Shown here: piece after piece, positions 15,591-49,759 of the stretch | Position numbering within the stretch: position 1 is the stretch's first letter | Layout of the letters: each line of letters begins with the position of its first letter | The notes under the pieces: generated by a model | The model's database searches: none | The model's input: the letters and a program-made list of their open reading frames with translations, nothing else | What the model was told of the DNA's origin: nothing | Made by a program: the position numbers and the translations under genes | Assembly: GCA_029938635.1 (NCBI GenBank) | Contig: JAOZUQ010000001.1 | Span: forward strand, 113,568 to 177,567 | Reading direction: 5' to 3' | From: Candidatus Aminicenantota bacterium | Lineage (GTDB): Bacteria > Acidobacteriota > Aminicenantia > UBA2199 | Length of the DNA stretch: 64,000 nt

Positions 15591-15763
15591 GGGGACGGTT
15601 CCATTTTTGTGTACAATATATTACAGGCGTAGCCATCCATCGGCTGTTGCGGCCACCTTGTATGTTAGATTATTAAATTAGTTTTACTTAATTTAATAGC
15701 TTGGGGCCGCTGATAATATCGAAAGCCAAAACTGAGTTGTCTATAAAAAAGAGAACCGTCCCC
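15591..15763. repeat. Nested palindromic (foldback) element with 11-bp terminal inverted repeats
   Basis: GGGGACGGTTC (15591-15601) / GAACCGTCCCC (15753-15763); inner GCGGCC/GGCCGC; innermost TATTAAATTA (15671-15680) / TAATTTAATA (15689-15698). Carries GGCGTAGCCATCCATC...ATAATATCGAAAGCCAAAA. Confidence 0.8.
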
Positions 15764-25381: not shown

Positions 25382-25407
25382 GTTAAAATAGGATCAGCCG
25401 TGGACAT

Positions 25408-25510
25408 GTATTGCTTTTACGGGACTGGCAGCCTGAGTCCGTCAATATCGGACGGAAGGCGGGCGTCCAGAAAAATACCAGCAGGATTTTGCGGTAGTAA
25501 AAGTAAATAC
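25408..25510. repeat. Type-B palindromic element (hairpin with AATATCG loop)
   Basis: Ends GTATTGCTTTTAC / GTAAAAGTAAATAC; core hairpin TCCGTC-AATATCG-GACGGA (25438-25456); shares TTTTGCGGTAG..AAAAGTAA.TACGG with 49625-49653. Confidence 0.7.
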
Positions 25511-25559
25511 GGCCAGAGGCATATCTGAACCCCTTGAACCAACGTTTACAGTGGAAATA

Positions 25560-32821: not shown

Positions 32822-34636
32822 ATGGCTAAAAATATCGGGATTGATCTTGGTACAACAAATTCATGTATTAGTTTCTTCGAAGGTTCAGTACCTGAGATCA
32901 TCCCAAATCCGGAAGGATCAAGGGTCATTCCCTCTATAATATCGCTCAATAAAAACAAAAAACCGATCTTCGGCAATATCGCAAAGAGACAATTCCTTTC
33001 AGACCCTGAAAATACGATCTGGGGAGTTAAGAGGATCATAGGGAGAAAATTCGATTCTCCGGAGATCGACAAGATAAGAAGCACAGCTGCTTATAACATT
33101 GTTGAAGCTGAAAACGGTGATGCCCATATAGATTTCAACGGAGAGATCTGCACTCCGGAGGAGATCTCTGCAATGTTCCTGAGGTACCTGAAGGGGATAG
33201 CAGAAGATTACCTTGGTGAAAATGTGGGAAAGGTTGTTATCACGGTTCCGGCATTTTTTAATGATGCACAACGATTGGCAACCAAGAACGCCGGTGAAAT
33301 AGCCGGACTTGAAATTTCCAGGATCATCAACGAGCCGACATCTGCACTTATCGCATACAGGGACAAGATTAATAAAGATGGCTATTATGCCGTTTATGAC
33401 CTTGGGGGCGGTACTTTTGATATTTCTATCATAGAAGTCAAAGATGAGATATTCAAGGTAGTATCAACTCTGGGAGACACTTTCCTCGGAGGAAATGATT
33501 TTGATGCTACTGTTTCGGACTGGATCCTCTCAGAGATCAAAAAGGAGATAAACACTGACCTTTCCGGCAATATGGACAGCATGCAGAGGATAACCCAGGC
33601 GGCCGAGAAAGCAAAGATCGAACTATCTTTTAACTCGGAAACACAAATATCCATCCCTTACCTCTTCCACTCAAAGAAGGGGGGGAATTACCATTTCCAG
33701 AAAAATCTGGACAGAGAAAAACTTGAACTACTTACATCGAAACTGGTGGCAAAGACTATAAAACTTGTCAAGGATTCTATGGGTGAGATCGATCTGGAAC
33801 CTGACCAGATTGAAAAAGTACTTCTTGTCGGAGGCCAGAGCAGAATGCCGATGGTCTCCCGTTTTCTGACCGAACTTTTCTCAAAAGAGCCAAAATTCGA
33901 TCTGAATCCGGAGGAGGTTGTTTCTATCGGTGCAGCAATGCAGTCCGAACTTCTGCATGGAAGGATAAGAGACCTGTTACTCCTGGATGTTACCCCTTTG
34001 TCCCTCGGGCTTGAAACAAAGGGAGATAAATTTACGAAACTTATTGACAAGAATTCTTCAATACCGATAAAGAAATCGATGATATTCACCACAATAAGCG
34101 ATAACCAGCAGACAGTTAAAATTCACATCCTTCAGGGAGAGAGAGAGATCGCATCTGAAAATAAGCCTCTCGGAGACTTTAACCTGATCGGGATCCCGCT
34201 ATCTCCGAAAGGGTTACCGCAGATCGAAGTAACATTCGAGATAGATGCAAACGGCTTGGTCAAAGTATCAGCAATTGACCTGCAAACCGGATTATCACAG
34301 AGCATGAATGTTCTGCCTGCAAGCGGATTATCACCTGAGAAAATAAAACAATTGATCGAGGAAGCAAAAGAGTTTGAGATAAAGGACCGGGAAACTATCA
34401 GACTTAACCAGACTGTCGCTAATATTGAAGAAGAAAAAGAGACAATAAAATTCTTCATGGAGCGGTATGAAGACAAGCTTACCGAAAAAGAGATCGGGGA
34501 GATCGATATCCTGATGACCCAGATAGAAGAGGTCCTGGAGGAAAAGGACATCCCAACAATGACCGGTATGCTGATGAAAACTATTGATATCAGAAAAAGA
34601 ATAAACAACCTGCTCATATCTGATTTTGAGGAATAA
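32822..34636 (+). CDS. dnaK: Chaperone DnaK (Hsp70); likely start 32822
   Basis: 'MAKNIGIDLGTTNSCISFFEG', 'VITVPAFFNDAQRLATKNAGEIAGLEISRIINEPTSALIAY', 'DLGGGTFDISI', 'VLLVGGQSRMPMV'. Confidence 0.97.
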   Translation: MAKNIGIDLGTTNSCISFFEGSVPEIIPNPEGSRVIPSIISLNKNKKPIFGNIAKRQFLSDPENTIWGVKRIIGRKFDSPEIDKIRSTAAYNIVEAENGDAHIDFNGEICTPEEISAMFLRYLKGIAEDYLGENVGKVVITVPAFFNDAQRLATKNAGEIAGLEISRIINEPTSALIAYRDKINKDGYYAVYDLGGGTFDISIIEVKDEIFKVVSTLGDTFLGGNDFDATVSDWILSEIKKEINTDLSGNMDSMQRITQAAEKAKIELSFNSETQISIPYLFHSKKGGNYHFQKNLDREKLELLTSKLVAKTIKLVKDSMGEIDLEPDQIEKVLLVGGQSRMPMVSRFLTELFSKEPKFDLNPEEVVSIGAAMQSELLHGRIRDLLLLDVTPLSLGLETKGDKFTKLIDKNSSIPIKKSMIFTTISDNQQTVKIHILQGEREIASENKPLGDFNLIGIPLSPKGLPQIEVTFEIDANGLVKVSAIDLQTGLSQSMNVLPASGLSPEKIKQLIEEAKEFEIKDRETIRLNQTVANIEEEKETIKFFMERYEDKLTEKEIGEIDILMTQIEEVLEEKDIPTMTGMLMKTIDIRKRINNLLISDFEE

Positions 34637-46845: not shown

Positions 46846-47038
46846 GAAGTCATGTCTTTTTCAAACCGGACTATAAACTCATCCAATTTATTTTAAAATG
46901 TAAAATACATCAACTTTAAACATAATGCAACTCAAAAAATAAAAAAAATTTTTCTGATCCTGCTACTCAATAGCAAAACACCGAAACGCCACATCTTGGC
47001 AACCAAAATGAGTGATATTTATTTAGAAGAAAGATTAA

Positions 47039-47170
47039 GGCGTAGCCATCTATCTGCACTCGTGGGCCTGGAGGGGTGACTCGCTAATATCGAGAACCCC
47101 GAGGCCGGGCAGCATAGCCGTATGAGAGCATACGGCGCGGGAGCGAAGTAGATGATGGCGAAAGCCAAAA
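47039..47170 (+). repeat. Type-A palindromic element, copy 2
   Basis: GGCGTAGCCATCTATC...GATGATGGCGAAAGCCAAAA; hairpins GGCCT/AGGCC + GGGGT/ACCCC + CTCG/CGAG (47065-47106) and GCCGTATG-AGAG-CATACGGC (47117-47136). Confidence 0.85.
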
Positions 47171-49181: not shown

Positions 49182-49354
49182 ATTATCCCCCTTACTGTAA
49201 CTAAATAGTAGATCAATTACACAAATATGATATCACATTCAAATGATTTATTGTTGATTCGGCTTTCATAAATAACTGTGTATTATTTATCTGTGAAATA
49301 GTGGCTTTTCCCGTAATTACTTTTGGAGTTAAGGAATTTACAAATATCATTCAG

Positions 49355-49487
49355 TTTTGGCTTTCGCCATCATCCACATCGCTCCGCTACGGATATTCTC
49401 ATCCGCTTAACGCTGCTTGTCCCCGGGGTGATCGATATTAACGAGTCACCCCTGAGGTGCCCGCTTATGCAGATGGATGGCTACGCC
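49355..49487 (-). repeat. Type-A palindromic element, copy 3 (inverted relative to copy 2)
   Basis: TTTTGGCTTTCGCCATCATCC...GATGGATGGCTACGCC; hairpins GGGGTGATCG/CGAGTCACCCC and CGGAT-ATTCTC-ATCCG. Confidence 0.85.
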
Positions 49488-49542
49488 TGAAACTCCCTGC
49501 TGGCAAAAACCATTTCTTTTATTCCCAAGACAAGTGGCGCTT

Positions 49543-49663
49543 CCGTGTTTTACTTTTGCGGGGCCAAATCCGAAGTCTCGCTAATATCGAACTGAGGATT
49601 TTCGCCCAGCGAAAAATGATAAGCATTTTTGCGGTAGCCAAAAGTAATTACGGAAAAAGCCAC
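49543..49663. repeat. Type-B palindromic element, copy 2
   Basis: CCGTGTTTTACTTTTGCGGGG...TTTTTGCGGTAGCCAAAAGTAATTACGG with core AGTCTCGCTAATATCGAACT. Confidence 0.7.
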
Positions 49664-49759
49664 GCAAACTAAATCGCAGTTGTGAATGAACAAAATGAAA
49701 AAATTTAGACTTAGAAATAAAAAACGATTATTATATAAGAATGAAGGATAATGTAACAA

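Follow-up and report, generated by a model that had tools for sequence, protein, structure and literature searches.

Small intergenic repeats with a conserved three-stem fold in one family of Candidatus Aminicenantes

Hairpins scattered through the genome of a Candidatus Aminicenantes bacterium are parts of a previously unlisted family of non-coding mobile repeats about 130 letters long. The three-stem shape of these repeats and two of their loop motifs are kept despite changes in the letters, and selection seems to act on the shape as such. With a probability that we would put at about 0.6, they form a superfamily of small non-autonomous intergenic mobile elements (core of ~130 nt), belonging to one Candidatus Aminicenantes family, in which it is the folded single strand that is selected.

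An initial annotation of the 64-kb window (that is, the whole stretch of DNA analysed) had listed four loci with hairpins around an AATAT loop. The hairpin sequences it quoted are all present at their positions and the hairpins are real, but each one is only a part of a three-helix unit of ~130 nt, and instead of a single set of hairpins the four loci comprise two copies each of two subfamilies. A fifth, degenerate copy had been missed. Moreover, the hairpin at 25438-25456 was rightly placed but read in another register, since the alignment favours GTCCG-TCAATAT-CGGAC over TCCGTC-AATATCG-GACGGA. The copies and related features of the window are as follows.

47037-47170, plus strand: complete subfamily 1 copy with outer stem, hairpin 1 and hairpin 2 (blastn against its own genome; covariance model R1, 146.7 bits; RNA fold z-score -4.4)
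47080-47094, plus strand: apex of hairpin 1 in that copy, CTCG-CTAATAT-CGAG (sequence; alignment A1)
47117-47136, plus strand: hairpin 2 of the same copy, GCCGTATG-AGAG-CATACGGC (sequence and fold)
49355-49489, minus strand: complete subfamily 1 copy (blastn; covariance model R1, 137.4 bits)
49390-49405, minus strand: its hairpin 2, CGGAT-GAGAAT-ATCCG on the minus strand (sequence; forward reading CGGAT-ATTCTC-ATCCG)
49425-49452, minus strand: its hairpin 1, GGGGTGA-C-TCG-TTAATAT-CGA-TCACCCC (sequence; alignment A1)
49534-49664, plus strand: complete subfamily 2 copy (covariance model, 142.4 bits; fold z-score -3.2 for 49540-49665)
near 49573-49592: AGTCTCGCTAATATCGAACT hairpin within that copy (sequence)
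25395-25523, plus strand: complete subfamily 2 copy (covariance model, 113.8 bits)
25438-25456: TCCGTCAATATCGGACGGA hairpin within that copy (sequence)
15624-15731, plus strand: degenerate subfamily 1 copy, hairpin 1 mostly replaced by an A+T-rich hairpin (covariance model R1, 24.9 bits)
15591-15763: GGGGACGG...CCGTCCCC arms around the degenerate copy, sequences that form the ends of RAYT-like Y1 transposase elements in the host genus
49301-49326, minus strand: lone 3' arm of subfamily 2, forming an inverted repeat with 49638-49663
49342-49353, minus strand: AAATATCATTCA end motif adjoining the 49355-49489 copy and recurring at the ends of such repeats

The motif CGNNAATATCG is found five times in the window where 0.38 occurrences would be expected, and none of 100 shuffles reaches five; four of the occurrences are the loci listed initially, and the fifth (32971-32981) lies inside a coding sequence.

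Both subfamilies have a common architecture, in which an outer stem closes a junction bearing hairpin 1 and hairpin 2 (RNAalifold and single-sequence folding). The apex of hairpin 1 reads TCG-NNAATAT-CG in both, within a loop region that includes a bulged C (C-TCG-NNAATAT-CGA), and the usual loop of hairpin 2 is UGAG[A/C]ACA. Top-strand fold z-scores lie mostly between -2.3 and -7.7, with one truncated copy at -0.3, and in all 33 copies tested the strand carrying AATATCG is more stable than its complement. On that strand, G-U combinations occupy 81 cells of the covariance-model alignment and A-C combinations 16, a measure that leans on the model. Across the other genera of the family the stem sequences are different, but most groups retain both loop motifs: G015 and G019 have the bulged C and TCG-NNAATAT-CGA in hairpin 1, G009 has a shorter version of them, and UGAG(A/C)ACA or a near variant is often retained in hairpin 2. 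The hairpin 1 loop is not kept in G003 and G005, nor is either loop in the single G026 copy. In G015, three loci (L175, L205 and L214) hold 258-264-bp variants of the core in which additional hairpins are inserted between hairpins 1 and 2.

The two subfamilies are barely alignable by sequence, yet each is found by the structure of the other. Covariance model R1, built on subfamily 1, detects subfamily 2 at E-values of 3e-10 to 3e-4, and model R2, built on subfamily 2, detects subfamily 1 at 1e-8 to 2e-4. Sequence-only HMMs nearly fail at the same task: with that of subfamily 1, two subfamily 2 copies score ~25 bits and none of the others exceeds 16, and with that of subfamily 2 the copies of subfamily 1 score at most 10.7 bits. 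The extra bits of the covariance models come from base pairing. In the two-subfamily model alignment 94.7% of the cells are paired (36-47% in slid controls) and 24 of 33 pairs have changed on both sides. The wider-family alignment gives 88.9% and 29 of 33, counts that lean towards the model to which this alignment was fitted; slid controls across both model alignments range from 36 to 52%. A sequence-only alignment of all groups still shows 73% of cells paired against 35-52% when slid, with only subfamily 2 staying in register.

The test suggested with the initial annotation, in which copies are collected, structurally aligned and scored for covariation, was run with a home-made substitute for R-scape; its input was 41 non-redundant rows, and simulating alignments on a tree provided its null. 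In the two-set test at E<=0.05, 10 of the 33 structure pairs covary by a G-test with APC and 15 by a pairing score, and over the 41 rows no significant pair falls outside the structure. Under the stricter one-set test nothing is significant by the G-test and three pairs are by the pairing score, all of them inside the structure. The outcome named with the initial annotation as refuting a selected structure did not arise; the proposal is upheld by two-sided changes that keep pairing, by the cross-detection of subfamilies with structure models and by covariation above the phylogenetic null in a model-fitted alignment.

The host genome (G000; 3.05 Mb in 137 contigs) contains, by blastn and covariance models, ~15 full or near-full copies of subfamily 1, 14 of subfamily 2 and several fragments; some 30 of these copies and fragments lie beyond the window. 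They are intergenic, often found at contig ends and often neighbouring one another. By blastn, subfamily 1 is limited to the host genus (3 of 60 genomes, its own included), whereas the combined model R3 recovers members in eight further genomes of the host's taxonomic family, for a total of six genera: G015 (26), G019 (3), G009 (1), G003 (8), G005 (1) and G026 (1), plus G001 and G002. R3 was applied to 142 genomes of the class, under stricter filters outside this family, and found no member in any other family. A pattern search of genome contigs for spread outside the family had a single true match, itself a Candidatus Aminicenantes record (L062); at L063 and L064 the pattern matched with no element around it. 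A phage origin was considered and rejected: the core patterns of subfamily 1, subfamily 2 and G015 gave zero or chance matches in viral contigs, and the viral-contig matches L065 and L066 have no element around them.

The core encodes no protein and occurs as many short interspersed copies, and comparisons with sister genomes show sites that lack it. The intergenic site orthologous to that of the 25395 window copy is empty in the sister species G001 (C65) when the joined flanks are compared, as is the G002 site (C25) corresponding to the copy at C48:88941, with flanks 85% identical. In G001, moreover, the site of the C98 copy holds a GGGGACGG palindrome instead, the C37 site has other sequence and the C104:25493 site has an apparent truncated remnant. 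What surrounds the core depends on the genome. In G015 and G019 it sits inside elements of 202-264 bp with CCWWAATYCACC inverted ends, and identical 4-bp flanks are seen in 6 of the 15 elements whose two ends are resolved, or in 5 of 12 when just the core-bearing elements are counted. Three elements of G015 (L206, L207 and L210) have the same CCWWAATYCACC ends around other palindromes, of the GTAGGGGCAACC... type, without the core, which therefore appears to be cargo in these two genomes. The eight G003 copies have just the core in common, and in G003 and the host genus we found no terminal inverted repeat that recurs consistently outside the outer stem, and no recognisable target duplication. 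Pattern searches of these fragmented genomes showed no autonomous partner with CAAATATCATTCA ends in the host genome or CCWWAATYCACC ends in G015 and G019.

Other repeats are interlaced with the core. A third one (~190 nt), which has AAATATCATTC and GAATGATATTT as its borders and hairpins of its own, immediately adjoins at least nine copies or fragments on their 5' side (upstream of the core in L006, L002, L005, L004, L010, L019, L037, L042 and L022). Two host-genome loci, C12:12-111 (L018) and C67:3480-3574 (L014), have a common junction where GAGCCGAAGGCAGTCGAGTGATGAATGAGACTGTA runs directly into the core's second half, which suggests a chimeric or duplicated breakpoint.

Strand-specific folding together with fixed loops suggests that something reads one strand alone. 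The reader would most likely be a transposase acting in trans on the folded strand as single-stranded DNA; the stems would then drift with compensation while the loop and junction bases stay fixed, and in some genera the core would also spread as cargo of other transposons. We consider single-stranded DNA more likely than RNA, a choice made on the transposon-like spread and the presence of Y1 genes in all eight of the carriers that were tested. Of the two alternatives left by the initial annotation, an RNA or a transposase/recombinase DNA hairpin, it is the transposon hairpin that the mobility of the element fits.

As for the enzyme, a Y1/RAYT-type HUH transposase would be the leading candidate, though a tentative one that we rate below even odds. 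RAYT-like Y1 genes of ~300 aa lie between GGGGACGG and CCGTCCCC arms at L068, L070, L073 and L074 (G000 and G001), and arms of this Y1 type enclose two core copies, that at 15591-15763 of the window and L062. All eight carriers tested have Y1 genes, but so do 11 of the 13 tested family genomes without an R3 copy; the genes are about as common there, and their presence does not discriminate. Moreover, the Y1 genes of the host genus carry ends unlike those of the repeat, which counts against this enzyme: in G000-G002 they have GGGGACGG ends or none, and no core was found by motif around them at the 12 loci examined. The 4-bp duplications of G015 and G019 point to a DDE-type transposase there and likewise count against a Y1 enzyme. 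No fixed 5' flank was seen at insertions in the host genus and G003, and orientation relative to GC skew (9:20) shows no significant replication-strand preference, its direction being opposite to a simple preference for the lagging template.

The main rival remains a structured non-coding RNA gene, trans-acting or protein-bound, travelling as cargo of different transposons, whose stems would covary through the function of the RNA. The strand-specific stability and the G-U excess would be explained in this way, as would the conservation of the loops and the bulged C beside variable stems, and the finding of one core in differing mobile contexts. We nevertheless regard such a gene as unlikely, because the copies are numerous and some of them truncated, their orientation to genes is inconsistent, there is no excess of promoters or terminators around the window copies, and Rfam 15 offers no match, either at the gathering score or at a relaxed E-value over the elements, a result that also led us to discard a known RNA family. 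A stretch adjoining one subfamily 1 copy (L009, 1718-1824) gives a sub-threshold match to the SAM riboswitch (30 bits for a gathering score of 44.4, E 0.004). A distinctly improbable variant would make the repeat a bacterial analogue of SINEs, a structured RNA gene turned into a mobile module and moved by several unrelated transposition systems, with loops binding a host or transposon protein and selection on the RNA fold.

Rather improbable as well, and already weakened, is an ordinary MITE of a DDE transposase, with an unselected fold and palindromes arising as by-products of inverted repeats and nesting. The inverted-repeat ends and 4-bp duplications of G015 and G019 speak for it, and nested repeats are rich in palindromes; however, it leaves aside that cross-detection of the subfamilies depends on structure, that the internal hairpins change on both sides and covary beyond the tree null, and that the core lies within elements with unrelated ends and has no common flanks in G003. 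Very improbable, finally, is a cis-acting DNA or mRNA element (terminator, mRNA stabiliser or nucleoid-protein site) kept for the benefit of the host, like some REP and ERIC functions. Strong hairpins and intergenic placement would suit it, but orthologous sites are empty and a preferred position or orientation is absent: 15 copies are tandem-antisense to genes, 8 tandem-sense, 10 divergent and 7 convergent. This lack of a consistent preference speaks against a role as leader or terminator, and a cis-regulatory leader was rejected for having no orientation bias. Integron attC sites or dif-like arrays were also rejected, as inspection by eye revealed no R-box and no recombinase context.

Taken as mobile elements whose folded strand is selected, the repeats are small non-autonomous bacterial mobile repeats set apart by a fold that outlasts sequence similarity. 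ERIC/IRU, Correia/NEMIS and RUP are bacterial MITEs of ~100-200 nt, intergenic, non-autonomous, imperfectly palindromic and interspersed (PMC2229807). Our repeats resemble ERIC, Correia and RUP in size, intergenic position, lack of autonomy, imperfect palindromes, a predicted RNA or DNA fold and interspersed copies. They differ in that a single three-helix fold, covarying and with conserved loops, unites subfamilies of dissimilar sequence, and in that the same core has unrelated flanks or lies within elements of other ends. Short, non-coding and multi-copy as MITEs are, they show MITE ends and duplications in part of the family only. REPs are single hairpins of 20-40 nt with GTAG/CGTC tags (PMC3733652, PMC8266576). 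Our repeats resemble REP/BIME/REPIN and RAYT systems in being hairpin repeats between genes, in having carriers with RAYT-like Y1 genes and in two copies that lie between Y1-type ends, but here an outer stem bears two hairpins in a unit of ~130 nt, the foot has no fixed tag, and no Y1 gene was seen flanked by the repeat. In IS200/IS605 palindrome-associated elements, mobilised by Y1 enzymes and inserting 3' of a fixed tetranucleotide, a folded single strand is a possible substrate. A folded strand may serve likewise here, and no common duplication is recognised at the core boundary in G003 and the host genus, although distinct hairpins for the left and the right end are absent, neither a cleavage nor a target motif was identified, and no TnpA/TnpB copy with these ends was found. 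With the structured RNAs of Rfam 15 the repeats have in common covarying helices, G-U pairs and conserved loops, and they differ in matching none and in their transposon-like spread.

Most small bacterial mobile repeats have been defined by sequence, whereas those described here are visible across genera only by their fold. This suggests that folding is the selected property, and that methods based on sequence undercount such families. The ~80 natural variants now available, with compensated stems and fixed loops, could help to identify the protein that reads the fold and to separate a role as RNA from one as single-stranded DNA.
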